In this document: positions 4,847 to 53,200 of the stretch, one piece after another
Position numbering within the stretch: the first letter of the stretch is position 1
Layout: every line of letters begins with the position of its first letter
DNA from: Apostichopus japonicus
Lineage: Eukaryota > Echinodermata > Holothuroidea > Aspidochirotida > Stichopodidae
NCBI RefSeq assembly: GCF_037975245.1
Contig: NC_092566.1
Coordinates: 2,170,001-2,234,000 of the forward strand
DNA length: 64,000 nucleotides
Direction: 5' to 3'
Program-made: the position numbers and the translations under genes
The notes under the pieces: generated by a model
Seen by the model: the letters and a program-made list of their open reading frames with translations, nothing else
The model's database searches: none
Told to the model about the DNA's origin: nothing

Positions 4847-6103
4847 ATGAAGTTACTAACTACGTTGTTGGTCATTTTTACCCTTCTGGCGGGCCATGTT
4901 GTCGACAGCCAAAACTGTGCAGGAACACCTTGCCTCTGTCAGCGGCGTAGCGATTCTATGGTTACTGTTATTGACTGTAGTAACCTAGGATTGACGGAGA
5001 TTCCAGACTTCCAAGAAATATTTTCTGGTATACTTGAGCTTTTGGACTTTTCTGGAAACGAACTGGTTACGTTTGATACAAGCAAACTGGGTTTCAATTT
5101 CATAGGTGTGAGCGGAATAGATCTAATTGATTTAAGCAATAACCGGTTAACGTCAATAGTGACCGGTTTCGCAATCCCTAACGTTAGTCCATCCTATGAC
5201 AAATTGAATATTTCCGGAAATAATTTTGATGCTTTCCCATCCAAGGCAATCCCACTTGAGTTTGCAAGGGTTGATCTGGTTATCGACATATCGAACAATC
5301 AACTGACGTCACTTGATAGTCATTTTATCGCCGACAATACAAATTTAGGGATTCCAACTCTAACATTTATTGCTAGAAATAATTTAATCGAGACAGTTCA
5401 CATAATGGCATTTGCAAATGCTGGTATTAATGAACTCCTCCTCGACTTGAGAGATAACAAATTGACCAACATTTCTCAGGAGTTTTATTTCCCAATCTCC
5501 ACAAATCGAGAGTTCAACCTGTCTGGTAACCCATGGAATTGTGATTGTAATTTCCGCTGGATTCTTCAATCTGACTACAAAGAGATTTCACAGCGAGCGC
5601 CCCCTCTTTGTGATAATCCTGCACCATTGCGTAACAAGGAGCTTTTTGACCTTCGACCTGATGACTTCGTGTGTTTTCCGGTACCAACAACTGAAGCTAA
5701 AGATTTGGTTATTACCAAAGGTGACAATACTGTATCGTGTCCGGCCACAGCGGATCCCGAAAGTACCCTTGGTATCACTTGGCAGCTCGACTTGAGTTGC
5801 TATGACAATAAGAAACCGCTTAGCATAATCGCAAACTCGAAAGTAGCCACTCTTAAAGACGTCACTTTTTTCCCTGAATCAAATATTACTTGCACAGCGA
5901 GTAATCACGCTGGTTCCATTAATATTCCCCTGACAGTGGTCAACTCTGAAGATGTAGGTCACTTCCCTGAAGGTGGCAACGAAAGTGATGCTGGTGTCAG
6001 CGGTGGGTTTGTGTTTCTAATCATTTTGGTGATCTTGTCAATACTCCTTTGTTTGCTTACTGGAGCCTACTATTTTTATCTTAAACAGAATCTTGAATGT
6101 TAG
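4847..6103 (+). CDS. LRR-Ig transmembrane protein, short tail (gene A)
   Basis: The 418-residue protein starts with a signal peptide (1-21, cleavage near VDS|QN). An LRR N-terminal cap follows (C24, C29, C31, C44), then about six leucine-rich repeats (about 45-225), an LRR C-terminal cap (NPWNCDCNFRWI at 228-239, then C255 and C276) and one Ig-like domain (C298 and C349). The usual Tyr before the second Ig cysteine is absent (NITCTAS). One membrane segment (about 387-411) leaves a 7-residue tail ending in Cys, with no signalling motif. It is a predicted type I surface protein; ligand unknown. The coding region is one exon. Possible acceptors TTCCAG (ends 4803) and TTCTTAG (ends 4812) lie just upstream of the ATG, as in genes B-D. 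It is the most divergent of the four paralogues. The pseudogene at 9733-10147 is closest to it. Confidence 0.9.
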   Translation: MKLLTTLLVIFTLLAGHVVDSQNCAGTPCLCQRRSDSMVTVIDCSNLGLTEIPDFQEIFSGILELLDFSGNELVTFDTSKLGFNFIGVSGIDLIDLSNNRLTSIVTGFAIPNVSPSYDKLNISGNNFDAFPSKAIPLEFARVDLVIDISNNQLTSLDSHFIADNTNLGIPTLTFIARNNLIETVHIMAFANAGINELLLDLRDNKLTNISQEFYFPISTNREFNLSGNPWNCDCNFRWILQSDYKEISQRAPPLCDNPAPLRNKELFDLRPDDFVCFPVPTTEAKDLVITKGDNTVSCPATADPESTLGITWQLDLSCYDNKKPLSIIANSKVATLKDVTFFPESNITCTASNHAGSINIPLTVVNSEDVGHFPEGGNESDAGVSGGFVFLIILVILSILLCLLTGAYYFYLKQNLEC

Positions 6104-9732: not shown

Positions 9733-10147
9733 ATTGTCGGCGATTAAATTATTATCAAGTGACGTCACTCTGTTGATTGTTCGATATATCGATAACCTGA
9801 ATCAACCCTTGGAAACTGAAGTGGGATTGCCTTGGATGGGGAAGCATCAACATTATAACCGGAAATATTCAATATGTCATAGGATGGACTAACGTTAGGG
9901 ATTGAGAAACCGTTCACTATTAAAGTTAACCAGTTATTGCTTAAATCAATTAGATATATTCTGCTCGCACCAATTAAATTGTAACCCAGTTTGCTTGTAT
10001 TAAACGTAACTAGTTCGTTTCCAGAAAAGTCCAAAAGCTTAAGAAATACCAGACAATAGATCTTGAAAGTCTAGAATTTCCATCAATCCTCGGTTAGTAT
10101 ACTGCACTCAATAACAGACCCCATAGAACCGCTTCGCTGACAGACAA
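9733..10147 (-). pseudogene. Truncated LRR-Ig pseudogene (gene A-like)
   Basis: Read on the minus strand, this matches gene A from its LRR N-cap (CTGTCAGCG...GGTTCTATGG) through about four leucine-rich repeats. Words such as FSGNELVTF, IPNVSPSYD and SKAIPL are shared in the same order. The copy lacks the signal peptide, LRR C-cap, Ig domain and membrane segment. It carries frameshifts on both sides of the open middle part (9765-10034) and an extra GTGA near 9761. At about 9732 the match breaks and ACCCATGGAATT follows, which resembles the later LRR C-cap DNA of gene A, so an internal deletion is likely. It is an old inverted copy with no sign of function. Confidence 0.85.
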
Positions 10148-23020: not shown

Positions 23021-23040
23021 AGGTTCTCTTTGGTACTACA

Positions 23041-24774
23041 ATGAAGACGCCCTCTTTCTACAGGATCCTGGCCTTACTCTTTACCCTGGTAGGGATCGTT
23101 CATTGTCAGCCGCAATGTCCCACTATTTGTACCTGTTCTCCTGATCCTGTATTGAATACTGGGGTAATTGACTGCAGTAATCGCGGTTTGACATCCATAC
23201 CGGATAATTTGGTTTATCCATTCGGAGGTACTATTGGTAAGATAGACCTATCAAACAACATGTTGACTACACTAGATATCGATCGGTTGTTCACGCTTCT
23301 TAGAGGTAGCCAGGTCGAGGCACTTGACTTCAGTTCAAACTTAATATCTGACGTCACTGGAACATTTGATGCACTCGACGGGAAAGATTATGTAACCCTG
23401 AATCTGTCCAGTAATGCGTTCACATCTTTCCCGGAGAATGTCATTCCCGTTAATCACCTTCGCAACGAACTCGTCCTTGATTTCTCGAACAACCGGTTAA
23501 CCGAATTAACTCGACATATTTTTGCTGGAGGTAATGATCCTACCCTGTTTGGGTTTCAATTCCTCGCCAGAAATAACTTAATCAATCGAATAGATGACGA
23601 AACCTTTCAAGGAGTTGAAATCGTAGATACAATTCTAGATTTGAGGTCTAATCTCTTGACTACTCTCTCACCGACCTTCCAAAGCCCAGTTGGAGTCCGA
23701 GAATTGCGTTTCTCGGGTAACCCTTGGAACTGTGACTGTAATCTTCGATGGATTATTAATCCTATGCGATTTCTTGTCAACCACACATCGACGGATCCTC
23801 CTAATTGCGTAACACCAGTTGCAATTCAGGGTAGACCTATATTTAGTCTAACATCAAATGAATTTACCTGTCTACCATTCCAACAGGGTCCGCTTCAAAG
23901 AAACATTGTCAACCCAGATAGCTTTACTTTGAGTTGTCCAGCTTCAGCCGATCCACCCACACCTGAGATCAGCTGGACTGTCTGGTTACCCTGTCCTAAT
24001 GGTGGTGACCCTCTAGAGTTGTTTTTTACCTCCGATGAGATTACTTTGAGTGATATCGACACTAATCCTAGGGCGGCATTTAGATGTACAGCAATTAATA
24101 ACGCTGGAAGTGTGGACTTCGACCTGGATATTCGAGTCGACGGTGAGAAAGGTATTGATATCCCAGGAACGTCAAATGTAGTGCCTCCTGACAACCCTGG
24201 AGAACCTCGTGTAGAGAGCACAATGGCTACCACAAAGAGTGTTTCTGGTGTTGTTACAGTAGGTGGTGACGGAGATGGGTCCTCCACAGTCGGTGGTAAC
24301 GATGATAAGCGTTCGGAATCACCGAATCGCCCCGTGGCTAGTATTATCATACTCGTTATAATACTCATTATTTCTTGGAGTATAATTGGATTTTTAATCT
24401 ACCGTATATGGCGATTAAAGAAGGAAGCCAGTGCAGTGGGTAAGCGACCACCTACCGAATCAGATTCAAACGGAAATACCGCCAAAGCTGTCCCTAAAAA
24501 CGGTATCTATAATGACGTAACGCATAACCAGGGCTGGAAGGGGTCAACAATTCATCCAGAGTTGTCAAGTGCACCAACCTATGCGGCGCCTGAAAAGACG
24601 AGACACGTGAAACCATCCGTACCTTTGAAACCACCTTCACTAAATAAACCAGCTCCACCACCTAAGCCCAAATCGAACCCATACCAGTACAATACCGAGT
24701 ACGTTGACCCGCCCCTCAGGTTTGGAGCTCATAATGGGGGATATAGCTACCATAATGATGACAGTGCAGCATAA
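23041..24774 (+). CDS. LRR-Ig transmembrane receptor-like protein (gene B)
   Basis: The 577-residue protein has a signal peptide (1-22, HC|QPQC). An LRR N-cap (C26, C30, C32, C45) precedes about six leucine-rich repeats, an LRR C-cap (NPWNCDCNLRWI, C231, C233, C256, C277) and one Ig-like domain (C299, C349; the usual Tyr before the second Cys is Phe). A Ser/Thr/Gly-rich stalk (about 377-430), a membrane segment (433-454) and a 120-residue tail follow. The tail has proline-rich SH3-type motifs (VPLKPP, PAPPPKPK) and several tyrosines (GIYNDV, PYQYNTEYVDPP). The start at 23041 is preferred over an upstream in-frame ATG at 23002, because a TTTTTTCAG acceptor (ends 23022) separates them and gene C has the same arrangement. 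The ectodomain nearly matches gene C, which is convergent 5.9 kb away. It is a likely cell-surface recognition or adhesion protein; ligand unknown. Confidence 0.93.
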   Translation: MKTPSFYRILALLFTLVGIVHCQPQCPTICTCSPDPVLNTGVIDCSNRGLTSIPDNLVYPFGGTIGKIDLSNNMLTTLDIDRLFTLLRGSQVEALDFSSNLISDVTGTFDALDGKDYVTLNLSSNAFTSFPENVIPVNHLRNELVLDFSNNRLTELTRHIFAGGNDPTLFGFQFLARNNLINRIDDETFQGVEIVDTILDLRSNLLTTLSPTFQSPVGVRELRFSGNPWNCDCNLRWIINPMRFLVNHTSTDPPNCVTPVAIQGRPIFSLTSNEFTCLPFQQGPLQRNIVNPDSFTLSCPASADPPTPEISWTVWLPCPNGGDPLELFFTSDEITLSDIDTNPRAAFRCTAINNAGSVDFDLDIRVDGEKGIDIPGTSNVVPPDNPGEPRVESTMATTKSVSGVVTVGGDGDGSSTVGGNDDKRSESPNRPVASIIILVIILIISWSIIGFLIYRIWRLKKEASAVGKRPPTESDSNGNTAKAVPKNGIYNDVTHNQGWKGSTIHPELSSAPTYAAPEKTRHVKPSVPLKPPSLNKPAPPPKPKSNPYQYNTEYVDPPLRFGAHNGGYSYHNDDSAA

Positions 24775-24957
24775 TCCGTAGAAATGAGACCAACATGACA
24801 AGCGATTATAGGAGATTATTCAATTAATAATTCAGATCCACTTGCTTTAGCACAAGCAATGGGTTCATATTATATAGGCGTGACACCTCTCTGTGGTAAA
24901 TTTCCCTATTTTCAATCCGGTTCTAGGAATGAGGGTTAGTCTATAAATTGTGCTTCC

Positions 24958-24963
24958 AATAAA
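24958..24963 (+). terminator. Poly(A) signal of gene B
   Basis: AATAAA lies 184 bp after the stop codon of gene B, a reasonable 3'-UTR length. Confidence 0.6.
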
Positions 24964-27377
24964 GTAATAGTATACCGTAAACGCAATATATAATCGTATA
25001 CCTTGTTGTTTACTGTTGTTCTTCACCGTTATTATTAACTGTTGTTGTTTACTGTTATTGCATATTGTTTTTGTTTACTGTCGTTGAATGTTGGTGTTTA
25101 ATGTTTATTTCTGTATTCAGATGCTACTCATTGGTTTGGTTTTATTTACATTGGTATAGAGATTACTATAAGAGTGACGAAAAGTTTCCAACGACTTTAA
25201 AAGTGTATAGCCTAAGATAAACACCGGTACTGGACGTCAAGACAGTTCAATTTTCATTATAAATAGGGTTAAAAATATGATAGATCGTCAAAGGACTTTT
25301 TATCATTACAATTAGGCCTATACCATTTATGAAATCATTTTCATTATTTAGACAACTTGACTACAGACTTTTTATTTTCGGTCAAACTGTCGTTATGTAT
25401 AAGTGCCTATTAGAGCACACGCAACAATGGCTTCGGCTTCCACTGCCGATAGTTATTACCGGAACAAAACAATAGGAAATGCGAAAAACTTTTTGTGTTA
25501 ACACTGATAATTTAAACAAAATATTTTGCCATTTATTACAAGAATGAAAAGGGATAAATTCGTTTGGATTTCTTTCTGTTTATTCCCGGGTTTTTTGCGT
25601 CATTAATTGCTTTGTAGATACTTGAGTATATAGTTGTATATAATTAAAGGCGAATATTTTACAAATTAAAACTCAAAGTATACAAACATAGCTAGAAGCT
25701 TTTTTATATATATTAGGACTGATGCATACTGAATCTCATCACAGAGACTACGTACATTGATGAACCCGTATATTAAACTGTGGTAGGTTACTATGCCAGG
25801 CATTAAGGTAACGCGCTTATACTTTATAAGCCTAAGTCATGATTTTAGAGAACAAAACCGCCATATATGGAATATAATCGCGATGTTATCATTAATAGTG
25901 TTATAGTATACCGTGTACACAGTGTGATATGTAGTCTCAATTGAAATACACAATGCGTGTGTTTTATGTTTTTTGTTTTTTTGTACCATGCAGTTGTAAA
26001 TAGAACAAAGAATTTGTATACAATAGAAATATTTGTAATGTTATCATTTGGAACTTGTTGTGTTTGTAAATGTTATCCCCGTGCCTGACCCCTATTTCCG
26101 TCCCATCCGTACCAAAGATATTGCCGTTTTATATAACAACTCACAACCCAGTTAATTGAAAGTAGACAGAAAAGTGAATATACAAGGTTGGATACTCAAT
26201 ATTATTCACGGACGTTTATGCATAGGTATTATCTTCAAGTTATTAATGGTTCTCCAAGTTAAAAGGCGGGGTGGGTTCTGAGCCAACCTCATTCACGTGT
26301 TTAAGCGATTTGATCAACAATCGCGGATAGTCTGTGGTATAACCTTTTCAAAATCTAAATCCTAATTCTTTAATACAGTGCCATCATTAATTGGTCGAAT
26401 TTCTTGATTTTGGATACACATACATATAAGGAAGTACCATTTTGTGAGTCTCCAGAGTCGTTCGATAGTGACAAACTGTCTCCCTAAAACCGGTCCAGTA
26501 AGGCTTAATTTCGAAAGCAAGGTACGACAACGAAAAGATGCATAGAAAAAAATGCAACAGAACCCTGAAGATATAGTTTATCAATATTGTAATTATCAAG
26601 CGAGAAAGGTTTTTTTTCTTCTATTGCATGGCCCAATTAGTCTTCCGTAGATCAGTACAACAACACTATGACGGCTTTTAGTGTTACACGTTATGCACTA
26701 TTCCGCTAGCACCGTAATCTCAACATTGAACATTTCTCTCACTCCTCCATCTAAACTCCTCTAACTTACTCTATATTGAGGTGTTTATTTTCATTTCCAG
26801 CTTCGTATTCAAAGACAAAATTTGCATATTGAGTAATGTGAGAAATTCTCGATAAATTGAAAAATCGCAACGTGTTTTTAACCTTTCTGCTTTATTCAAT
26901 ATGTGTTTTGACGTCATACTGCAAATACCTCACTTCATAGAATACTGGAATGCGGGGGAAAAAATACTCCGTTGATTGTTTCATACTCCAATAGGTTTGT
27001 ATCAGTCGCTTCCTTATTTGGACATGTGGTTAATTGTACGTCTCTTGTGTTGTGACTGGTTCAGTCAAATTTAAGACTGGAAAACTTACTTTACACAACA
27101 TAGTCTGTAATATCACATTACTGCTTCTACTTCTATACATAACTCAACATAATAGGCAGGGGATCGTATGTCCGAATCATCATGAGTCAAGGTGTGCTGA
27201 AAGCGAACGCTGAGGATCGTGGGTCACGTGCACAAGATGCAAAATATTCAAACCTCCATGCAATCAGCCCCGCTGCACTCTCCCTCCGCCATTCCCTGGA
27301 CCTCATCCCTATAACAAACATAACTCAGTTTGTTGCCGATTAGAAATCAGAGGCAACCATATACAGCACCTAACCCA
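24964..27377. other. Intergenic, no gene recognised
   Basis: AT-rich DNA. TGTTGTTTACTG-like words recur at about 25009-25100, a decayed short repeat. No supported gene. Confidence 0.4.
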
Positions 27378-27420
27378 GGCGCGTATCCAGGGGGCGTTGG
27401 GGGCACGTCCCCCGGGTAAG
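27378..27420 (+). mobile_element. hAT-like left terminus, truncated
   Basis: CAGGCGCGTATCCAGGGGG resembles the tip of the element at 4177. It runs directly into a purine-rich GAAA/GGAA tract (27420-27520), and no right end follows. Confidence 0.5.
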
Positions 27421-27520
27421 AAAAAGAAGAGAGAAAAAAGGGAGGGAAGAAAAAAAGTAAAAAAACGGAAGAAAAGAGGAGGAGGAGAGGAAGGAATGGA
27501 AAAGAAAAAGAAGAAAGAGG
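27421..27520. repeat. Purine-rich low-complexity tract
   Basis: About 100 bp of almost pure A/G on the plus strand. Overlapping frames on both strands arise only from this composition. Confidence 0.8.
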
Positions 27521-28466
27521 GCAATTCCGTAAAGTCGGACGTACATTTCGGACAGTTTGTTGATCCATATCTCAATGGCTATATATAGGAGATTACTTTT
27601 TATTTGGGTTTTGTGTAACATCTGCCTTGTATTATTCTGTATGGAGTTTCATTTCTTGCCCATCTAAATAACTACAAAAATACTAAAACAACCTCCCTGT
27701 GACGGACGTACCTAGAGAAAGTGACTTTTTCAGATCGTATTTTTCTTTTGAAAATTTCTGTGAATTGGAATGGGATACAATTAAAAACTACTATACATGT
27801 TATCAAGAAGACTCTTAACTACCCATATCAGTAAACAAGCAGTTGAAACATTTATCACTTAACGGCAATATTTTCAAAAATTCCTTTGTGACGGACGTAC
27901 AATTTTTTGTGACGGACGTACATTTGTGATAGTAAATGTACGTCCGTCACAAACCAAAGCACTACTTGATATGCCTAAAAGTTCAGTTTGTGACAGGGCT
28001 TCACCCAGGGTTTCCATTGTTGACAGCTGTACACAATAATGCAGCATTTAACTGTGCCTAATGGAACAACTTAGGTAAAAGTAATAGTGAAACGAAGGTA
28101 CACCCTCTCACAAAATTGGAAATATGTATTTCACTTTAAGTTGTATGCAAAACATCACATGTAATAATAAGCTCAATTAAAATTGTGTGTTCATCATTTC
28201 AAACAATACAGATGTAAGACCCCTAGGGTGTTGAAGTTCTCTGTGCGTCAGAGTGGGTCAGAAGGATGGGCCTTTATTAACATTAGGATGGCATGAACAC
28301 CAAAACCATTTTTCTTTCACTTTTCTTCACACGTGACAATTTTTTAAATTAAAATACATGTACTGCAAGCTTTTGTATGCATGATATAGCAGCACTTTTC
28401 AACAAACAAGAATTTCAGAACTTCAGATGTGTGATGCAGTATGTTGCATTGCTTCAGGAATTCTTA

Positions 28467-29856
28467 GGCTGTATTCACATTGGATCCCGTTTTTGGTCCT
28501 GTGTTGACAATTTAACCACATATATGTTATACCAAAATCTCCGATAGTGTTCACACTTGAAGTCCTGCTCCAGCTCTGATTGCCCACTCTGGACAGGAAG
28601 TCACAATATTTGTAGGGTTACTCACATAGAAGTGCGAATGCACAAAGTGTATTGTACATTTTCTATAAAGATGAGTGTCACTAACTTCTGCATGCAATGG
28701 ATATTCAAGCTTTGATGTGAAAGAATTCAGTGTTAACCATGGTGTACATACTATGGAGTGCAAAAAGTTATTCAGAGGTGACTGCAATAACTGGCAATAG
28801 TTCTTAATCTATTGTTAAGACACCGAGATACAGAGGCACACCCTTGGTTAGTATAGCAACTATGGAACATGTCAGGCGCGTAGCCAAGGGGGGGGGGGCG
28901 AAGGGGGCACCCGCCCCCCCCCCCCTTGAGCATATTTTTAAAAAAATGTTTTAATGTTTTTATGATATCGCTAGTATTTGCAAAGGAGAAAATGCTAAGA
29001 TGCAACTTACAAGGCCTGGGAAGTGCCATTTCCAGCGACCTGGGAGGCATTTTTAGCCAAAATTTTCTTGTACGCTTCGCGCCAATTATGGTGGCGCTAC
29101 GCTTATATAGTTTGCAATGCCGAATCTACAGTTTCGCCCCTCCCTTAGCAAATTCCTGGCTACGCGCCTGGAACATGTAATAAAGTAATTTACACAAACA
29201 CTGTGAAGTTAAGGATGAACCTTCTGGTAACTCTGTCCACCAACACATAAAACTCTGAGCACATGTGGTTTCAAAATAAACTTTTCTCCCACATAATAAT
29301 ACCAGAAACCCAACACAGAAAGTAACAAACGTGTAGCAAATGTAGAACAAATTACATAACAACAATAACATGCATACTACAGCAGTAACAAATACTAACA
29401 ATTGCAATAACAGTTGTCGATGAACCTTTGACAATCTTCCTACCAAAACTGATTTATTATTTTGCTCAAAACTGGTTGAACACGGTGTAATAAATATGTT
29501 GGAATATCAAAGGAAACCTTATGGACAGAAGGAAGAATAAATGGCAGAATTACAAAGAAACAATGTTGTCACGAAAACAAAACGAATTTGTAGCTAATAG
29601 TTACATATATGTTCATGGTTAATTTGATTAACAGTGCGTGAAACAGGCATGGTGTTATGGAGTTAATTTGACCTTGATCTCCGGTCACCTTGGTCCTGAG
29701 TGTTCACACTCTGGAACTGATATCCCCCAGAACAGGGGACCAACATGTCGCGATTTGACCATGAGTAGGAGAGTGATTATACTGGGATGTTGATCTCGAG
29801 CAGGGGATATGATTCGATCGGATCCCCTCTGTGCATTTTTCTAATGTGAACAAGGC
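28467..29856. mobile_element. Possible nested inverted-repeat element
   Basis: The left edge reads GGCTGTATTCACATTGG and the right edge, reverse complemented, GCCTTGTTCACATTAG. The arms also share TTTGGTCCT/TTGGTCC and GTGTTCACACT further in. It contains the 298-bp hAT-like MITE at 28873. Superfamily and duplication are uncertain. Confidence 0.35.
28873..29170 (+). mobile_element. hAT-like MITE, CAGGCGCGTAGCC family (copy 2)
   Basis: The 298-bp copy is nearly identical to 4177-4474. It has an exact 8-bp duplication, GAACATGT, at 28865-28872 and 29171-29178, which sets the ends precisely. Its orientation is the same as copy 1. The exact duplication and close similarity suggest fairly recent movement. 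Confidence 0.95.
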
Positions 29857-30306
29857 TTTTAGATGAAAGTGTCATATCAATGTTGGCAATAGCATACTGT
29901 ACATGTAGTTCATTAACGTGCCATTTATTTGATATATTACCAAGTACTAACCAATAACAGAATATGCTGGTTGATAGTTGACACTGAAGTATGCAGTGTG
30001 AATACCTCTACAGTTATGCTTATGGAACAACCATAAAACTCCCTGTCTGTGTATATGGGATTTATCATTAAATTTAGAAGGAATGTAGTGATTAACATTT
30101 TAGAAAACATTGTGTATCTAAACAAAACTAATGTGACGGACGTACGCGTGACGGACGTACGGAAAATACGTACGTCTGTCACAGCATTTTCTGCAAAAAT
30201 CATTTCGTAGAAGAAAATATAGATACTTCTGATGTTATGCGGTGGCCTAGTTTGAACGTTGGAAGTACAATAAACAATGGCGAAGCTTAATCTCGAAATG
30301 TCGCCT

Positions 30307-30312
30307 TTTATT
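30307..30312 (-). terminator. Possible poly(A) signal of gene C
   Basis: TTTATT on the plus strand (AATAAA on minus) lies about 355 bp beyond the gene C stop codon. Confidence 0.4.
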
Positions 30313-30666
30313 TTGTGAGTTTCTTTTATCCCTGATTTAATCTCCAAAGACGTTCCAAGACATCTGAAAAGTCACTAATTCATTTTATATACACGAATTA
30401 AATGAACAAACATTTTACAAACCACACCAGCCCAAGAAATAGATACAACAAATATTGTTCGTCTTTCACTCATCAAAATCCGATCACTATGAAGAAAAGA
30501 TTGTAAGTTGATACTTGTATTTGAGTAACTTATATCAAAATATCACGCGTAAAATGGTGTTGTTCCTTTAATTACTAAATGAATTTCAAGTTCATTTGAA
30601 AACGTCTAAATTAACACTGTTAATAATCCAAATATCTTTTTAAACACGTCTCAACCCTCATATCAG

Positions 30667-32367
30667 TTAATTTTTCGGTTCTAAGTAAGCATTTTCTTGA
30701 TCAGTTATGTAATAGTAAGCACTGTCATTTACCATGGGTTTCGTGCCTGAACTAACACCTGCCTTATTAGAGGGCGGTACAGCTGGTTTGACGGGTAACT
30801 GCTTTATCGATTGCGGCATGTGTCCAGTGTCTTCATACTCATCCTGAGGAAGGTCCAGTGAAAGGGGATGACCAGGAGTTCCCGCCATCTCGTTCTTCTG
30901 CCTTTTCTTGATATTGTAGTATGACGCTGGTTCTACACCAGAAACTGATGGTTTATATTGGTCAGATGGAGCGTTTTTCGATGATTTTATCTGGGCCGTA
31001 CATGAACACTTCTTCTTTAGGTTCCAGTTTTGATGAATCGTAAAACCTGTTACGCACCACGAAATAATCATTAATACAATTACAACGACGAGACCACACA
31101 GTAGTCCTATTGGTAATGACGTTTCGTTGACCACGATGCCTCCTGTGATGTACATCGGTGTTGGACTATGACCAGTGGTAAAAAAAGTATTCCCTGAAGA
31201 AGGTGTATAAATGGGCTTATGGGATGACGAGGGTATATTTACTGGGATATCTATGCCTTTCTCACCGTCGACTCGAATATCCAGGTCGAAGTTCACACTT
31301 CCAGCGTTATTAATTGCTGTACATCTAAACGCCGCCCTGGGATTAGTGTCGATATTACTCAAAGTAATCTCATCGGAGGTGAAAAACAACTCTAGTGGGT
31401 CACTACCATTAGGACAGGGTAACCAGACAGTCCAGCTGATCTCAGGTGTGGGTGGATCGGCTGAAGCTGGACAACTCAGAGTAAAGCTATCTTGGTTGAC
31501 AATGTTTCTTTGAAGCGGACCCTGTTGGAATGGTAGACAGGTAAATTCATTTGATGTTAGACTAAATATAGGTCTACCCTGAATGGCAACTGGTGTTACG
31601 CAATTAGGAGGATCCGTCGATGTTTGGTTGACGAGAAATCGCATAGGATCCATAATCCATCGAAGATTACAGTCACAGTTCCAAGGGTTACCCGAGAAAC
31701 GCAATTCTTGGACTCCAGCTGGGCTTTGGAAGGTCGGTGAGAGAGAAGTCAAGAGATTGGACCTCAAATCTAGAATTGTATCTACGGTCGCAACACCTTG
31801 AAAGGTTTCGTCATCTATTCGATTGATTAAGTTATTTCTGGCGAGGAATTCAAACCCAAACAGGGTAGCATCATTACCTCCAGCAAACATATGTCGAGTT
31901 AATTCGGTTAACCGGTTGTTCGAGAAATCAAGAATGAGTTGGCTGCGTTCGTGTGTAACGGGAATGACCTCATTCGGGAAAGAAGTGAATGCATTACTGG
32001 ACAGATTCAGCGTTACATAATCTTTCCCGAAGGCTGCATCAAAGGTTCCAGTGACGTCAGATATTAAGTTTGAACTGAAGTCAAGTACCTCGACCCGGTT
32101 ACCTCTAAGAAACGTGAACACCCGATCGATATCTAGTGTAGTCAACATGTTGTTTGATAGGTCTACCTTATCAATAAACCCTCCTGGTGGATAAAACAAA
32201 TCATCCGGTATGGATGTCAAACCGCGATTACTGCAGTCAATTACCCCAGTATTCAATACAGGATCAGGATAACAGGAACAAACAGTGGGACATGGCAGCT
32301 GACAATGAACGATCCCTACCAGGGTAAGGAGTATGGCCAGGATCCTGTAGAAAGAGGGCGTCTTCAT
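30667..32367 (-). CDS. LRR-Ig transmembrane receptor-like protein (gene C)
   Basis: The 566-residue protein has the same layout as gene B: signal peptide (1-22), LRR N-cap (C26, C30, C32, C45), about six LRRs, LRR C-cap (C231, C233, C256, C277) and Ig-like domain (C299, C349). A stalk (377-417) and membrane segment (about 418-441) precede a 125-residue tail. By eye about 42 of the first 376 residues differ from B. The stalk then has no visible match, and the membrane segment keeps only IISWxxxGFxI...W.LKK. The tail carries SAYYYI (549-554), which fits the ITIM consensus, plus ASYYNI (481-486), DEYED and VKPAVPP. The ATG at 32367-32365 follows an acceptor TTCTTTCCAG (ends 32387), so the longer upstream frame opening with TTG at 32457 is intron. 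Function inferred: surface recognition; signalling through tail tyrosines is possible but unproven. Confidence 0.93.
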   Translation of the reverse strand: MKTPSFYRILAILLTLVGIVHCQLPCPTVCSCYPDPVLNTGVIDCSNRGLTSIPDDLFYPPGGFIDKVDLSNNMLTTLDIDRVFTFLRGNRVEVLDFSSNLISDVTGTFDAAFGKDYVTLNLSSNAFTSFPNEVIPVTHERSQLILDFSNNRLTELTRHMFAGGNDATLFGFEFLARNNLINRIDDETFQGVATVDTILDLRSNLLTSLSPTFQSPAGVQELRFSGNPWNCDCNLRWIMDPMRFLVNQTSTDPPNCVTPVAIQGRPIFSLTSNEFTCLPFQQGPLQRNIVNQDSFTLSCPASADPPTPEISWTVWLPCPNGSDPLELFFTSDEITLSNIDTNPRAAFRCTAINNAGSVNFDLDIRVDGEKGIDIPVNIPSSSHKPIYTPSSGNTFFTTGHSPTPMYITGGIVVNETSLPIGLLCGLVVVIVLMIISWCVTGFTIHQNWNLKKKCSCTAQIKSSKNAPSDQYKPSVSGVEPASYYNIKKRQKNEMAGTPGHPLSLDLPQDEYEDTGHMPQSIKQLPVKPAVPPSNKAGVSSGTKPMVNDSAYYYITDQENAYLEPKN

Positions 32368-32387
32368 TGTGATACTAAAGTATGACC

Positions 32388-33200
32388 TGGAAAGAAACAT
32401 AAAATATGAAGTGAACACTAATACCAAAAAATACAAATAATGTGAAACTTGTAACAATGTTATTTCGCACGATACGGTATATTGAGATTATTTGGACAAT
32501 GTCGAAAGAAGGGATGTGGGTGTGGCATAAGATCATTTTAGAAGACAGTCTTAATCTGTTAACTGTGAGACATATTCCACATCAGTATAACCTATCTGTA
32601 CTGAACTAAATATAAATGCACAATCCAAATCCTTTCTTAAAGGTATATTTAAAAGAATTTTTTTTTTTTTTTAGTTTGCTATTTTTGTAAAATATTTCTT
32701 ATGCTAAAATACGATGCCGATTCAGTGAATTAGATTGACTAAAGTTAATTTTCAAATAATAAAGTAAAAATACGATTATTCGGGTTGTCTCAATTGGCAA
32801 TTCAGTCATTAAAACATCAAACAAAATAAACGATGCTTAAAGATCATTAGTATTGGCCCCGAATTTTTGCATGCTAATAATTGCTAAAAGTTTCCTAACT
32901 TTTCAAATAAAAATACTTCCCGAAAGGCTCTGAGCCTCCAAATATTTCCAGTCATTACGGAGTACTAGAAATGAAAATTAAAGACTCACTGATCATAACA
33001 ACGTTACGATGGGGCAGTAAACTGCTTGTTGAAAAGTAAGCATGTATGGTTGGACCAATATCTCGTGAGTTATTTAGGATAACTTTGAATGATCAATCTC
33101 TGAAATATTGCCATTTTTTAAAGACAGAAGACGTTGATGTTCATTACGTATTTTTTTATAGCTTTGTAAGCCAATACGAATTAATACCAGCGACGCAACT
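32388..33200. other. 5' intron of gene C and intergenic DNA
   Basis: Just upstream of the acceptor (about 32390-32455) the minus strand is recognisably homologous to the intron end of gene B (ACAAGTTTCACATTATTTG against ACACGTTTCAAACTATTTA). The remainder is AT-rich with a T-run near 32658-32672 and no gene. Confidence 0.5.
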
Positions 33201-34515
33201 CATTGACTAACTGTTAGATTACCAGTCAGTCGGTCAGTGACTAACGGTTAGATTTCCAGTCAGTCGGTGAGTGACTAACGGTTAGATTAACAGTCAGTCG
33301 GTCAGTGACTAATGGTTAGATTACCAGTCAGTCGGTCAGTGACTAACTCTTAGATTACCAGTCAGTCGGTCATTGACTAACGGTGAGATTTCCAGTCAGT
33401 CGGTGAGTGACTAACTCTTAGATTATCAGTCAGTTTGACTAACGGTTAGATTACCAATCAGTCGGTCAGTGACAAACGCTTAGATTACTAGTCAGTCGGT
33501 CATTGACAAACGCTTAGATTACTAGTCAGTCGATCATTGACTAACAGTTAGATTGCCAGTCAGTCGGTGAGTGACTAACGTTTAGATTACTAGTCAGTCG
33601 ATCATTGACTAACAGTTAGATTACCAGTCAGGCGGTCAGAAACAAACGCTTAGATTACTAGTCAGTCGATCATTGACTAACAGTTAGATTACCAGTCAGT
33701 CGGTCAGTGACTAACGGTTAGATTACCAGTCAGTCGGTCAGTGATTAACGGTTAGATTTCTAGTCAGTCGGTCATTGACTAACGCTTAGGTTACTAGTCA
33801 GTCGATCATTGACTAACAGTTAGATTGCCAGTCAGTCGGTGAGTGACTAACGTTTAGATTACTAGTCAGTCGATCATTGACTAACAGTTAGATTACCAGT
33901 CAGGCGGTCAGAAACAAACGCTTAGATTACTAGTCAGTCGATCATTGACTAACAGTTAGATTACCAGTCAGTCGGTCAGTGACTAACGGTTAGATTACCA
34001 GTCAGTCGGTCAGTGATTAACGGTTAGATTTCTAGTCAGTCGGTCATTGACTAACGCTTAGGTTACTAGTCAGTCGATCATTGACTAACAGTTAGATTAC
34101 CAGTCAGTAGGTCATTGACTAACGGTTAGATTACCAGTCAGTCGGTCAGTGACTAACGGTTAGATTACTAGTCAGTAGGTCATTGACTAACGCTTAGATT
34201 ACCAGTCAGTCGGTCAGTGACTAACGGTTAGATTACCAGTCTGTCGGTCAGTGACTAACGGTTAGATTACCAGTCAGTCGATCAGTGACTAACGGTTAGA
34301 TTACCAGTCAGTCGGTCATTGACTAACTGTTAGATTACCAGTCAGTCGGTCAGTGACTAACGGTTAGATTACTAGTCAGTCGGTCAGTGACTAACGGTTA
34401 GATTACCAGTCAGTCGGTCATTGACTAACTGTTAGATTACCAGTCAGTCGGTCAGTGACTAACAGTTAGATTACCAGTCAGTCGGTCAGTGACTAACGGT
34501 TTGATTACCAGTCAT
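33201..34515. repeat. 34-bp satellite with 272-bp higher-order period
   Basis: About 38 tandem units of 34 bp share the phrases CAGTCAGTCGGTCAGTGACT and AACGGTTAGATTAC. Near the centre an 8-unit block (33551-33822) is followed by an almost identical 8-unit block (33823-34094), an offset of exactly 272 bp. One unit near 33430 is shortened. There is no spacer structure, so this is a satellite and not a CRISPR array. Confidence 0.97.
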
Positions 34516-35815
34516 CGTCAGTATTTCATTGGAAAACTATAGGGAAACTATGCAATGTTTTGATGTTACTACATAAGTACAGTAATCTACATGTATCCCT
34601 AAATCGAAACATGTGATGACATGATGGTAATGTAACATTAAATGGCCTAAAGGATTTCACTCATTTAGTTTCTTGCTAAAAAAATGAAACTGTGACAGTA
34701 ATCGAGTTTCCACTGTCACTTTACTAAATTACAGCAGACGCCGCTTACTCTACAGGCTTATTGCAGCAGTGCAATCACATTTGTTGATTATCATCAGTTA
34801 TTATTTCTTTAATTTTTAGTTACGTATCATGTGCTTATGTTCATAAAAATGTCTACTGCAAGAGTTTATATCTACAAAAGGAAGGGAACATCCATAGGGC
34901 ATTTAGCCAATAAATAGCTTGAAATTCTACTCCTGCTCTAAAATTGGTTTTATTCTATAGTATTGGCGACGTGGTGAAGGTTTTCTTCTCCTGTGCAACA
35001 GATGGATTGGTAAAAATTTAGGTCAATATTCGAATCTTTGAAACATATTCTGATCTTACCAAATGCCTAAATAATTAGTGAATTTTGTTTATCTCTTTAT
35101 TAATTTAAATGCATGTAATTGACAATACCTATTTTCCAGAAGTGAAGTTTCATGCTTAGCAAAAGTCAGAGACAATGTTTTCATCGATGAAATACTGTTT
35201 ATACTATATCAAATAAAGAAAGAAGGTAAGAAGAAAATGTTTAGGTGGAAAGAAAAACATAATTCTTTACAAACTTCTTTTAAGCGAATACAGAACGGAA
35301 TTGATTGTTTCTTTTTTGTGTACCGTTCTTTCAGTAAGAACACAATCTTATAAAAAAGAAAATGACAAACAAAAAGTTGAAGCATCGTGTGACTTCCCGT
35401 CCAGCTTGGAATTTGAAAAATGAAATATTTTTGCCCCCCAGAAATAATCCGTGATGGACATTGTCTACTCCTTAAAATTATTCAGCAGAGCTTAACTCCT
35501 AGATATGAAAGATTCTGAAAAGAAGAGGAAAGACTACAGATTATTAGAAAATAAAGAAGGAAATGAAAGCTCACCGTGTAGGATGTCGCAGATATTAACA
35601 CTAAACAAAATGGCGGAAGTCGTCTCAATAATCGTTCAAGTGCAAAGTAAAGCCAAATAGTGCACAGAGCCGTGTACAGTGAAGTTCTTATACGTAATGA
35701 TACAAAAATAATTGCAAGGCTCATAAAAAGGTTTAACAAAAATTTTTGCAACAGTGAACCGTGCAATTGGAATAACAACCATGAAAGGCTTTTGTTAATC
35801 TTTATCATTGGAGTT

Positions 35816-40524: not shown

Positions 40525-41649
40525 ATGACCCTCTCTCTAATCCTTTGTACTGCCTTGCTTCTTGGAAGGGTTCATGCACAGTGTCCGACAGCGTGCTTCT
40601 GCACTAGTGACGTCATAGACTGTAGTAACCTCAATCTTAACGAACTGCCTGTTGGCACCACACCATCGAGTTTCGACAGACTCTCACGACTTGATTATTC
40701 AAATAATGGGATTAGTGTCTTGGATATAGATCGATTATTCCAATTTATTAGGGGATTAGAGGTTGATGTGATCGATTTCAGCTCTAATCGTATCAGTGAC
40801 GTCATTGGTACTTTTGATGCAAACGATGGGAAAGACTACCTTGTACTGAATTTATCCAGAAATGTTCTACAGACATTCCCGTCGAGCATAATCCCTTTGA
40901 ATCACATCAGAGGGATGATAACTATCGATATCTCGCACAACCAGTTAACCGAACTGACCAGAAATATGTTTGCTGGTGGTAATGACGTGATTCTACCGAG
41001 ATTTCAGTTCTTCGCTACAAATAACCTGATAAGTCGTGTTGATCCAGAAACATTTCAAGGAGTCAGCATACTTGATGCTATAGTTGACCTACGATCTAAC
41101 TTAATCCGAACCCTGACTGAAGATTTTCAGTCACCAAGGAGTGTAAGGCAGTTACGATTCTCCGATAATCCTTGGCATTGTGACTGCAATCTTCGTTGGA
41201 TTATAACCCCAGCTAACCGACTGGTTAATCACACAATGGATGATCCCCCGGCATGCCGAACCCCGGCTGCGGTACAAGGACGTCGAATCTTTGAACTACG
41301 GCCAGATGACTTTGCATGCCTTCCTTTCCAAGATGGACCGTTACGACAAAATTACCTAAACATGGATTCTTTTCTAGTACGGTGTCCTGTAAACGCAGAT
41401 CCACCGCGGTTTCAGGTTGATTGGCAGGTTTGGATACCGTCGCCATTCGGGTTGGATCCTATCCAACTCTTCTTCACGTCAGAGACGGTAGGACTAAGGG
41501 ACCTGGTAGCCAACCCCAGAGCAGCCTTCAAATGCACAGCAAGAAATAATGCTGGGAGTTTGACTCTTTCTCTTGACATCCAGTTTAACGGTGAACCCGG
41601 TTTACCGGTTCCGGAGTGCCCAGCTGTTATCGCTCCAGATCAGTGTTAA
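40525..41649 (+). CDS. LRR-Ig protein without membrane segment, probably secreted (gene D)
   Basis: The 374-residue protein has a signal peptide (1-18, VHA|QC), LRR N-cap (C20, C24, C26, C33), about six LRRs, LRR C-cap (NPWHCDCNLRWI, C219, C221, C244, C265) and an Ig-like domain (C287, C337). It shares the order of B and C, including DRLFxFxRG, GTFDAxDGKDY and ETFQGV. It then ends 19 residues after NGEPG, where B and C pass into their stalks. No hydrophobic segment follows, and the last 10 residues contain two extra cysteines (C365, C374) that could support dimers. The acceptor TTTATTTAG ends at 40483, 41 bp before the ATG. It may be a soluble family member. Alternatively, the mRNA may splice out before the stop into an unseen membrane exon; none was recognised in the next 600 bp. 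Confidence 0.9.
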   Translation: MTLSLILCTALLLGRVHAQCPTACFCTSDVIDCSNLNLNELPVGTTPSSFDRLSRLDYSNNGISVLDIDRLFQFIRGLEVDVIDFSSNRISDVIGTFDANDGKDYLVLNLSRNVLQTFPSSIIPLNHIRGMITIDISHNQLTELTRNMFAGGNDVILPRFQFFATNNLISRVDPETFQGVSILDAIVDLRSNLIRTLTEDFQSPRSVRQLRFSDNPWHCDCNLRWIITPANRLVNHTMDDPPACRTPAAVQGRRIFELRPDDFACLPFQDGPLRQNYLNMDSFLVRCPVNADPPRFQVDWQVWIPSPFGLDPIQLFFTSETVGLRDLVANPRAAFKCTARNNAGSLTLSLDIQFNGEPGLPVPECPAVIAPDQC

Positions 41650-49189: not shown

Positions 49190-50245
49190 CTAACAGTTGA
49201 AGGAAGGAAAGAGAAGAAGAAGGAGTGACCCAACTGACAAAACAAATATAACTGACCTTTGTTAATTTCATGTGTTTATGTCGTAGCTTTTAAAGCAACA
49301 TAATGTGTCAAATGTGAGCATATGGTTTGGGGAATTGTTTACTACAAAGACTAAGTTACTAAATATATACGGACAACTCTTAACAACAAGACAATTACAA
49401 TCACAGTAACATCAACAACAAAACAGGTCTACAAATGACTACAGAGGATGAATATCTAGCTCATAACTTCAATGAAACTTATATATCTTGGTAGTCATTG
49501 ATGAAGCTAATCTCTGATTTGCTGAGTCACAGATGGAGGGATGTACTCAAGGATGGAAAACTGCTTTGGTACAATTTTTGGGGGTCCATTTTTATTGTAC
49601 TTTTGAGCATATTTAGGGGAAATATTAATGACCTTTAATGCAAAGAGATTTACAAGAATAAACAAAACCATAAGAGAGAAAAAGAGAGAGAGAAAACTGA
49701 TGAAATACCACCAATCTGTTTATCCCAGAGATTAATCTGATTACTCTAATTAATCTCATTAATCTGAGTGAAATAAGAGAAGGTAAGGTATATTCCTTCC
49801 ACGATTAGAAACCAAACTTACCAATGCAGTTTCTAGGACCTGCTGAGAAGGGTACATATGCAAATGGATGGCGACCCTTTATGTTTTCAGGCAAGAACCG
49901 ATCTGGGTCAAACTTCTCTGGGTCGGGGAACTGCTTGGGGTCACGGTGAAGCCAGTAGATACCAATGACAGTAATGGTATCCTTTGGAACAAAGTTACCA
50001 CCTGAAATATAAAAAATATATATATATTTATTTCATACCAAAATTGAAAAGAAAATTGTGCATTTATATGTCATTCAATAGCACTGCTACTGCTACTACT
50101 ACTTCTACAACTACTACTACTACTGCAACTACTACTACTACTACTACTACTACTATTACTACTACTACTTCTAGAACTACTACTACAACGGTTAATACTA
50201 CTATTACTGCTACAACTACTTCTACAACTACTACTGCTGCTGCTT

Positions 50246-50279
<34 letters not shown>

Positions 50280-53200
50280 AACTACTACTACAACGATTAA
50301 TACTACTAATACTGCTACAACTACTTCTACAACTACTACTGCTGCTGCTACTACTACTACTTCTACAACTACTACTACAACGACTACTACTACTAATACT
50401 GCTACTACTACTTCTACAACTACTACAACTACTCCTACCACTACTACTACTAATGCTGCTGCTACTACAACTACTACTACAACTATTACTACTTCTACTT
50501 CTACAACTACTTATACAACAACTACTACTACTACTCCTACTGCTACTACTACTCCTACTACTACTACTACTATTGCTATTGCTATTGCTACTGCTACTAT
50601 TTCTACAACTACTTCTACAACTACTACTACACTACTACTACTTTTACAACTACTTCTACAACTACAACTACTACTACCACTACTGCTACTGCTACTACTA
50701 ATTACTTCTACAACTACTTCTACAACTACTACTACTAGTACTACTCCTACTGCTACTGCTACTACTACTACTGCTATTGCTACTGCTACTACTTCTACAA
50801 CTACTACTACTACTACACTACTACCACTACTTTAACAACTACTTCTACAACTACAACTACTACTACCACTACTACTACTACTACTACTGCTACAACTACT
50901 TCTACAACTATTTCTACTACTACTACTACTGCTACTGCTACTGCTACTACTTCTACAACTACTACTACAAATACTACTACTACTTCTACAACTACAGAAC
51001 AGTATTAATCAATACGTAGCAATTCTGAGACGACAAAAGCAAGGAATTTGATATCATATAACATCCAAGTGATATCAGCTATTACTACAGTGAAAACTTC
51101 TCCCTATCTCTCTAACCACCGACAGGAGGATATAAGATCTATTCCAAATTCGCTCAAACTGGATTGCTGAACAGTGAACAGGTTCAAATAGATTTCTTTT
51201 GTGACCCACAGCATTGAAGGTCACTTGGGTGTAATTGAGTGCACTCACTAAGGACGGTGTCTTCTTCCAATTGTCTTGCAATGAGGGGTACTGGAGGGAA
51301 CAGACGGAGCGCTTCCTTGACTACGCAGTTAAGGTACGTGAGATTCTGAATGTCATCATTGGTAACTGGTCTGTCCCGGTCATTATCTGAAGATGACAAT
51401 AGAACAAAGATAGCTCAATGAAGGTTTATGAGCACTTCAACCATCCACACAGTAACTTCATGTTAATACAATCTTGAACAGTTTCTTTTCTATTGGTGTC
51501 AGTACAGTAAAGCATTTATAAATTGGCTCATGTCAGGCTAACAATAGCTCAACAATAACAACAACTGTTAACAATAATAGGCTAACAATAACTCAACAAT
51601 AACAACAACTGTTAACAATAATAGGCTAACAATAACTCAACAATAACAACAACTGTTAACAATAACAGGCTAACAATAACTCAACAATAACAACGACTGT
51701 TAACAATAACAGGCTAACAATAACTCAACAATAACAACAACTGTTAACAATAACTCAACAATAACAAAAACTGTTAACAATAACAGGCTAACAATAACTC
51801 AACACTAACAACAACTGTTAACAATAACAGGCTATATATATTCATCCCTACTGGAAGCTCTACCAAGTTTGCCACGCCTGATTTTCATAAATTTTCCAAA
51901 AAGTGGTTTATACCAACACAGTATCTTTGACTTGCAATATTATGAGTTGTCAAGTAAAACCCACACAGACATGTTAAATACATCATTGCGTTAAGTGTTG
52001 GCTTATTTTATTTTTTAAACTCACCAAAGACATTGTCAAGTTCTTCTTGAACCTTCTTTTGTATTTCAGGATGATGGCCCAGCAAGAAGAGGGTCCACGA
52101 GGTCCCGGAAGCTGTGGTATCATGACCCTACAAGAGAAACAGTAAAAAAGACAATGGCCACATAGCGTAAACAGTAAAGGGTTACATGGTATCGAAGCCC
52201 ATTAAAGATTGAATGATATTCTGGCCCAATATAAGAATGTTAGGCAGTTTAGTTGTAATACTGTATGGTATCGTGGTGCTATGCCATAGATGGTAGAAAA
52301 TTTAAATGACATTCTGGTCACGTTATAGGAATGGTAGGAAAACAATGAGTTTCACACAACAGGTATGTGTTACCACGGTAATGCAACAGAAACGGTGGGA
52401 AGTCGAGACGAACCTCTCCAGGAAATGAAACTCCTATATTCTACCTCATTGTATACTAAATATTTATTTAGTAATGGTGCCGATGCAGTGATTCAACTCT
52501 GACATCATATTTTTTACACTGCCATAATACATTGTTTTTACCCGTTGCACGACCTCTCTTGATCCTTTCACTTCTATCTATATGATTCAGGAAATAGCTC
52601 TGTCAATTACGTTAACCGGTCACAATTTCATTTCTTGACACCTTACCTCAAACATGAAGGTATCAACCTCTTCTCGGATGTCTTCCAAGGTGAAGGAAGG
52701 ATCCTGTTCGTGGACCTCTAGAAGCAGATCGAGAAAGGCAAGTTTTCTGCGGCTTCGGACCTCTTCTGTCTTGTCGTCGATGACATCAATCTTTTTGCCT
52801 TGTTGTCTCTCTCTCTTCCGCTCTGCTCTTCGCAGGAGAATCACCTTGACGTCCAAGAAAGAAAAAGAATTTAATTGGTTTTACCAATCAGGCAACAAAT
52901 CTACCCACATTCCAAAGACCAATAACCTACAATTTTGAGGGAGCTTTGCGTCTGCTCAAAGCTTGTTAGACAGGGTCAGAGAAGGTTGAAGCAAATAAGC
53001 TTATATTAAAGTTATGTACAAATTAATAACGACAAAAGAGAATCTCAAACACCTTGTCGACAATTTCGCATCAGCTACAGTACTTCACATATCTTTAATT
53101 AACACATGTCATTGTTTTCAATGTCACACCCAACCTTTTTAATTTTGTATTTATTTTTGTTTAAATTTTTCTTATTTTAACAAATTTTATATTTTACTTA

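Follow-up and report, generated by a model that had tools for sequence, protein, structure and literature searches.

Two neighbouring convergent genes, here called B and C, in a 64,000-nucleotide stretch of the Apostichopus japonicus genome (positions 2,170,001 to 2,234,000 of NC_092566.1, referred to as the window) encode predicted membrane receptors with leucine-rich repeats (LRRs) and an immunoglobulin (Ig) domain, whose ectodomains are nearly alike and whose stalks and tails are not. In our judgement it is very probable that the whole ectodomain was copied between old B-type and C-type loci, and that its LRR part has diversified since, leaving similar heads on different tails. We observed the shared block, its edges, the homogeneity of its silent sites and a composite junction in a third copy, E, directly; copying in either direction would fit them.

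According to this account, B and C would be two old members of an LRR-Ig family, each with its own 5′ flank, stalk and tail and with a single-frame coding sequence (CDS). A block of about 1.14 kb, which runs from the signal peptide through the whole Ig domain, would have been copied across the two loci, presumably through gene conversion between loci or a related kind of repair, around or after the duplication of the C-type locus that gave rise to C and E. The LRR domain has since diversified, with its replacements concentrated in the loop residues that directly precede the beta strands, and the Ig domain has changed little. From the architecture and the rates, the likely outcome would be two membrane receptors with related but non-identical recognition heads and different cytoplasmic tails.

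Limits of the block shared by B and C

Gene B (23041–24774, + strand) is a single open coding frame of 577 amino acids (aa), in which a signal peptide (identified by eye) is followed by LRRNT, the LRRs, LRRCT, the Ig domain, a stalk, a membrane segment and a cytoplasmic tail. Gene C (32367–30667, − strand; 566 aa), also a single open coding frame, has the same architecture with another stalk and tail. Their ectodomains align without gaps as an inverted repeat of 1142 nt with 94% identity, whose arms (23028–24169 on the B side and 31239–32380 on the C side) are 7069 nt apart. In a two-rate change-point fit on the ungapped B/C comparison, identity fell from 0.94 to 0.30 at a right edge that follows CDS nt 1126 (support 1126–1130), and the left edge came out at CDS nt −3 (support −13 to −1). 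Together, the inverted repeat and the change points delimit the homogenised ectodomain tract at 23028–24166 (+) in B, or CDS nt −13 to 1126, and at 31242–32380 (−) in C.

Codon by codon, 27 residues were replaced between B and C in 1–145 and 15 in 146–375, while a sixteenth, residue 376, lies past the edge; four replacements fall in the Ig domain (residues 292, 322, 338 and 359). Past the right edge, the stalks aligned no better than chance (498 of 500 shuffles reached their score), and neither did the cytoplasmic tails (134 of 500), whereas the membrane segments scored above all 500 shuffles. An earlier reading made from the sequence alone (the sequence-only reading) had counted, by eye, 27 differences in residues 1–145, about 15 in 146–376 and four in the Ig domain, had seen similarity collapse just after GEKGIDIP, and had described unalignable stalks, tails with little in common and related membrane segments; the codon comparison, the right change point and the shuffle tests bear it out on all of these. 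Upstream of the two genes, no match between the 5′ flanks was better than an E-value of 0.096, and the 3′ sequences shared one weak piece only (94 columns, 72%, E-value 0.002).

The B-specific stalk, membrane segment (approximately residues 434–454) and tail occupy 24166–24771 (+). Their C-specific counterparts, with the membrane segment at approximately residues 422–444, occupy 30670–31242 (−), and a frame-broken copy of them lies behind the ectodomain of E. We searched the genome (671.6 Mb in 35 contigs; all paralogue comparisons here are within this one genome) for both tails and took matches from the best-scored candidates only. The C tail retrieved two pieces of E (80–83%) and B (28%, E-value 1e-5), and the B tail retrieved C (27%, E-value 2e-5) as well as a short stretch of E (34%, E-value 0.007).

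A recent duplication of the whole gene, with the tail later replaced in one copy by exon or tail shuffling, would also be expected to leave one young ectodomain on unrelated tails, and the composite junction of E, which joins the start of a B-type stalk to a C-type edge and tail, shows that such joins occur. We nevertheless regard this as unlikely. B and C are unmatched upstream of the ATG as well, so that both sides would need replacing; the C-type 5′ flank and the C-type tail were kept together in C and E; a single open frame runs through ectodomain and tail, with no intron at the edge; and the membrane segments are remotely homologous, as those of old family tails would be. A misassembly, or the inclusion of two haplotypes next to each other, has to be considered for any inverted segment of high identity, a typical source of error. 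It is extremely improbable here, as the unrelated tails and introns mean that B and C are not alleles, the third copy lies 1.1 Mb away, and there is no N in the window.

Silent divergence and the third copy E

Between the B and C ectodomains, synonymous divergence (dS) was 0.078 overall, 0.077 for codons 1–145 and 0.079 for codons 146–375 (7.8 silent changes of 107 versus 12 of 161; Fisher p = 1). Nonsynonymous divergence (dN) was 0.116 and 0.029 in the same two parts, and the ratio of nonsynonymous to synonymous changes differed between them (Fisher p 0.03). For residues 1–145, dN/dS was 1.5, which is not significantly above 1, whereas the Ig domain was strongly constrained (dN/dS 0.16). Since dS is equal in both halves, they appear equally old and differ in constraint. 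The contrast at residue 145/146 was rejected as a conversion boundary, because the silent rate is the same on its two sides and 14 of 14 control pairs from the family (described below) show the same contrast between LRR and Ig parts; the contrast, which the sequence-only reading had pointed out, needs no conversion.

Synonymous divergence is not uniform over the ectodomain and the tail, and the refuting condition set by the sequence-only reading therefore does not hold. The alignment from stalk to tail showed 29% aa identity and a dS of 1.58, despite including the last 10 identical codons of the ectodomain. This low and flat dS in the ectodomain, together with a stalk, tail and flanks that are unmatched, indicates that an ectodomain block moved between two old loci. 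Purifying selection that held the ectodomain alike while the tail drifted, with no recombination, would suit the constrained Ig domain. We rejected it on the silent sites and give it practically no chance, since these are alike too, while those between B and D, another paralogue in the window, are saturated, and since residues 1–145 do not look constrained at their dN/dS.

A genome search yielded one further close ectodomain copy, E, at C6:1067693–1068848, 1.1 Mb from B. The distance (d) between C and E was 0.098 in the proximal and 0.157 in the distal 5′ flank, 0.134 in the tail and 0.278 in the 3′ untranslated region (UTR); judging from these matches, C and E are segmental duplicates. The C-type 5′ flank (intron side) spans 32386–35797 (−) and is common to E at d 0.10–0.16 but not to B. 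Within it lies a 34-bp tandem array of about 39 copies (33200–34522), which was also seen upstream of E. On the other hand, B has in common with E only the ectodomain and 24 nt of B-type stalk, plus dispersed repeats elsewhere in 20 kb. These 24 nt, the first of the B-type stalk past the edge, are at 24170–24193 (+) in B and at C6:1068825–1068848 in E, and are not in C. Accordingly, the E/B alignment reaches 24193, the E/C alignment ends at 31239, and the sole genome match of B DNA 24150–25500 outside B is a 44-nt end in E.

Thus E consists of the ectodomain, a B-type stalk start, a 60-nt scar, a second edge of C type and a C-type tail; the C-like edge lies 115 nt further downstream than the B-like one. 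Its frame ends within the scar, at a length of 401 codons counted from the ATG or 432 from stop to stop, and the C-type tail behind the scar matches in two frames. A 554-aa open frame for E, given by one output, was not reproduced by the other analyses. When the scar was compared with the B stalk, 129 of 1000 shuffles reached the score under one scoring and 23 of 2000 under a laxer one, a weak similarity. A B-like end and a C-like edge in the same copy indicate that the end of a B-type ectodomain was joined ahead of a C-type edge, and we read the junction as a probable relic of transfer between B-type and C-type genes. It is possible that the fusion took place once in the ancestor of C and E and that C then lost the segment between the edge repeats; neither order of events works without a transfer from one of these gene types to the other.

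Silent distances in the ectodomain were 0.078 for B–C, 0.087 for B–E and 0.117 for C–E, with 13/157, 9/155 and 13/155 differences at fourfold sites, respectively, and 8, 8 and 8 shared derived sites for the three pairings when polarised with D. From these star-like distances and equal derived sites, B is as near to C and E as C is to E. Tract and flanks are therefore discordant, as the flanks and the tail group C with E and the ectodomain forms a star. B–C silent sites were also less diverged than the pooled 5′ flank and tail of C and E, 3′ UTR excluded (20/268 versus 291/2364, p 0.02), and the silent comparisons place the transfer at about the age of the C/E duplication, or younger. Several hallmarks of conversion were found, namely an ectodomain dS far below that of the tail, unalignable flanks, sharp ends and discordance of tract and flanks. 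The gene conversion suggested by the sequence-only reading, or an equivalent transfer, is supported by the homogenised silent sites, the sharpness of both edges and the E junction.

C-specific changes were seen clustered in 42 nt (CDS nt 394–435; 23434–23475 in B and 31974–31933 in C), a stretch in which B and E are mostly the same. This cluster may reflect strong selection or else a micro-conversion whose donor was not found in the genome.

The arms, being 1142 nt long, 94% identical, inverted and 7 kb apart, could also support a crossover that flips the 7-kb middle and exchanges the tails between the 5′ ends. Such an exchange is very unlikely, since C in the sequenced haplotype keeps a C-type 5′ flank with a C-type tail, as does E, which leaves no net exchange since the C/E split. 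We attach equally little probability to the inverted repeat serving as an exchange device, at which flips in the germ line or soma would make individuals or cells differ in the signalling tail joined to a given promoter and head. The inverted arrangement may or may not have driven the transfer, the third copy being 1.1 Mb off.

Divergence of one LRR face and the family controls

Copying between the loci would make the heads alike; replacements that followed are unevenly spread. In residues 61–228, they affect 30 sites among B, C and E, and 14 of the 34 positions that make up the six residues preceding each LxxLxLxxN strand (six anchors). With seven anchors, B–C dN was 0.252 on this LRR face and 0.050 elsewhere in the LRR region, compared with the ectodomain dS of 0.078. 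The ratio of face dN to ectodomain dS was 3.2 for B–C (p 0.0005), 2.2 for B–E (p 0.018) and 1.8 for C–E (p 0.036), in comparisons that are mutually dependent. Random placement with all phases allowed gave p 0.0023. When the phase derived from B, C and E was applied unchanged to other genes, the face was also enriched in a trio of C14 genes (27/48 versus 42/155, p 0.0002; the alignment had been seen beforehand) and in the C9/C21 pair (22/48 versus 34/163, p 0.0008), and not significantly in the C17 trio (12/42 versus 24/126, p 0.14). Hence it was recovered in two of three other gene groups.

The excess of dN over dS on the B–C face points to diversifying selection, although the loops before the strands may also be less constrained. 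By sequence, the heads appear to be alike through copying and to have been driven apart since on one side. This weakens the idea of the sequence-only reading that one recognition surface feeds two outputs: the dN/dS of residues 1–145, while not significant, is above 1, that of one lateral LRR face is about 3, and a fixed recognition surface common to both receptors would not be expected to diverge on one face.

As controls, 16 genes were compared pairwise (120 pairs), 14 of them from C6, C9, C14, C17, C20 and C21 in addition to B and C; A, D, E, a C12 gene and two C14 frames that came out short when read from their first ATG were left out. Fifteen pairs with at least 55% identity were taken into account (14 controls and B–C). 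Seven control pairs are approximately as young as B–C, with an LRR dS of 0.09–0.14, and keep 83–91% aa identity and a dS of 0.05–0.15 from stalk to tail. The other seven had an LRR dS of 0.62–0.91 and tails with 46–58% aa identity. A young ectodomain on an old tail was found in B–C only, and in none of the 14 control pairs. The LRR part was less conserved than the LRRCT-Ig part in all 15 pairs (76–84% versus 91–96% in the close pairs, B–C included).

The seven older pairs are C14 pairs, all seven with lower silent divergence in LRRCT-Ig than in the LRRs, and there may be conversion of the Ig part inside the C14 array. This is a tandem array of related LRR-Ig receptors (C14:15137799–15176291; L036–L040), in which the three closest members have conserved tails, variable LRRs and variation in loop length before the strands. 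Such a pattern is the usual immune-type one and the opposite of B/C. The statement that immune-type receptors more often carry variable ectodomains on conserved tails, from which B and C had been set apart, may therefore hold generally and does hold in this array; the pattern of B/C, however, has precedents in SIGLEC11/16, CD300A/C and CEACAM.

Several results weigh against transfer of the ectodomain followed by diversification of one face. In the GENECONV-type check proposed earlier, runs of shared sites within the ectodomains of B, C and E (p 0.08) and the longest identical run (p 0.15) were not significant and do not prove sub-tracts. B–C silent divergence is not below that of the proximal C–E intron alone (61/666, p 0.44), B–E silent sites differ from the C–E pool at p 0.058 only, and C–E silent sites do not depart from the flanks of these two copies (p 0.55); one transfer near the time of the C/E duplication fits too. 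The membrane segments show that the tails of B and C go back to a remote common ancestor. In the seven older control pairs, LRRCT-Ig dS (0.31–0.67) is below LRR dS (0.62–0.91), so silent rates or conversion vary within other family members too. As for the face, whole-region tests for a nonsynonymous excess on B–C (e.g., codons 1–145) were not significant, the phase was picked from the same three sequences (B, C and E), and 17 of 168 circular shifts reached the observed value, though this control is weak because a shift by about one repeat brings the pattern back into register.

Gene content, tails and known systems

The window holds four LRR-Ig genes and one A-like fragment. Besides B and C, these are gene A (4847–6103, +), an LRR-Ig paralogue of 418 aa with a membrane segment (by eye) and a very short tail, and paralogue D (40525–41649, +), of 374 aa, which ends approximately 12 residues past the position of the edge. 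No membrane segment was found in D, and no B or C tail match lay near it in the whole-genome tail searches; perhaps D is secreted. E and D may be soluble forms or pseudogenes. The edge position seems to recur as a break point of the family, in B/C, D and E. The fragment at 9801–10146 (−), an LRR piece that is 65% identical in aa to A across 116 columns of alignment, is a probable pseudogene remnant. A to D each read as one open frame with the ATG a few tens of bases past an acceptor-like AG (in B, the acceptor-like TTTTTTCAG is 18 nt upstream of the ATG), from which we infer an untranslated upstream exon for these genes.

Outside the genes, several copies of a short motif of GTGACGGACGTAC type were seen in both orientations at 27880–27960 and 30130–30185, in the loop between B and C. 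A long ACT-type repeat array with strong GC skew is present at 50083–50995, and the threonine-rich open reading frame over it (49984–50835) is probably spurious. The tRNA scan of the window detected none, and a bacterial promoter scan was run, which is uninformative for animal DNA.

The assignment of B to an LRR-Ig transmembrane family rests on Pfam domains (LRRNT and LRR_8 above the cut-off, Ig (I-set) and LRRCT below it), on fold matches and on the membrane segment seen by eye. The predicted fold of its ectodomain had a mean predicted local distance difference test score of 85 and a predicted template modelling (TM) score of 0.77 (19 sequences). Its best fold matches were SALM2, SALM5 and LINGO-1 (E-value approximately 1e-11; query TM-scores of 0.40–0.47 for the top three), and identity to the B ectodomain was 16–27% among the 50 fold matches listed. 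LINGO, SALM/LRFN and NGL/LRRC4, which share the LRR plus Ig ectodomain with B by sequence and fold matches, are neuronal adhesion genes and are not known to form fast-evolving multigene clusters. From their architecture and rates, B and C probably have a role in cell-surface recognition or adhesion.

The cytoplasmic tail of B is proline-rich (18 of 116 residues) with seven tyrosines, and that of C has eight tyrosines and one motif, SAYYYI, that resembles an immunoreceptor tyrosine-based inhibitory motif (ITIM). Counts of ITIM, YxN, Yxx-hydrophobic, PxxP and Px[VI]P motifs were not above shuffles in the tails of B and C, and the Yxx-hydrophobic count stood out in two of three C17 genes only (p 0.01, uncorrected). 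B and C could be true paired receptors, in which selection maintained conversion to give one activating and one inhibitory receptor the same ligand, as in SIGLEC11/16: the genomic pattern is that of SIGLEC11/16 and CD300A/C, and the ITIM-like motif is present in C and not in B. This motif is, however, at chance level (p 0.24), the cores of both membrane segments are free of charged residues by eye, and the LRR face outpaces the silent sites, against one shared ligand surface. Such a pairing is not established and seems improbable, though somewhat less so than replacement of the tail.

No conversion of this sort in LRR-Ig or invertebrate receptors was present among the papers listed in literature searches (titles and starts of abstracts), and no absence is claimed. 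The amphioxus BbLcLRR, an inhibitory LRR receptor, is likewise an invertebrate LRR transmembrane receptor with tail tyrosines; its motifs were tested in cells, whereas those of B/C are at chance level, and conversion is not mentioned in the passages cited (PMC8211107). In the CEACAM family, as the passages of PMC8860441 describe it, N-domains are shuffled by conversion among paralogues, with rapid divergence and decoys, and bacterial adhesins are the proposed driver. An extracellular domain moved among paralogues and rapid divergence are common to both cases, but mainly the N-domain moves in CEACAM and the entire ectodomain in B/C.

In primates, conversion keeps the extracellular domains of CD300A and CD300C alike while their cytoplasmic parts differ, according to the passages of PMC12447643, which is the likeness and unlikeness seen in B/C; unlike B/C, they have a single IgV-like domain, are known inhibitory and activating partners and come with an orthologue series. 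SIGLEC11 and SIGLEC16, in the cited passages of PMC5701461, are neighbours in opposite orientation approximately 9 kb apart in primates, with an ectodomain homogenised by repeated gene conversion. B and C are also inverted neighbours with a homogenised ectodomain and differing, putative signalling ends. The SIGLEC genes, however, have an Ig-lectin fold, lie head-to-head with several exons and are reported inhibitory and activating partners, while B and C are LRR-Ig genes, convergent and coded in one frame.

The genomics of B/C resemble those of SIGLEC11/16 and CD300A/C, and are well explained by an event of this known type. The E junction offers a means of dating the copying and of testing it in relatives, and B, C, the tail-less D and the broken-tailed E form a natural set that separates the contributions of head and tail. 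Outside the vertebrate Ig receptors, a recognition ectodomain would thus be movable as one cassette and would then diversify on one face.

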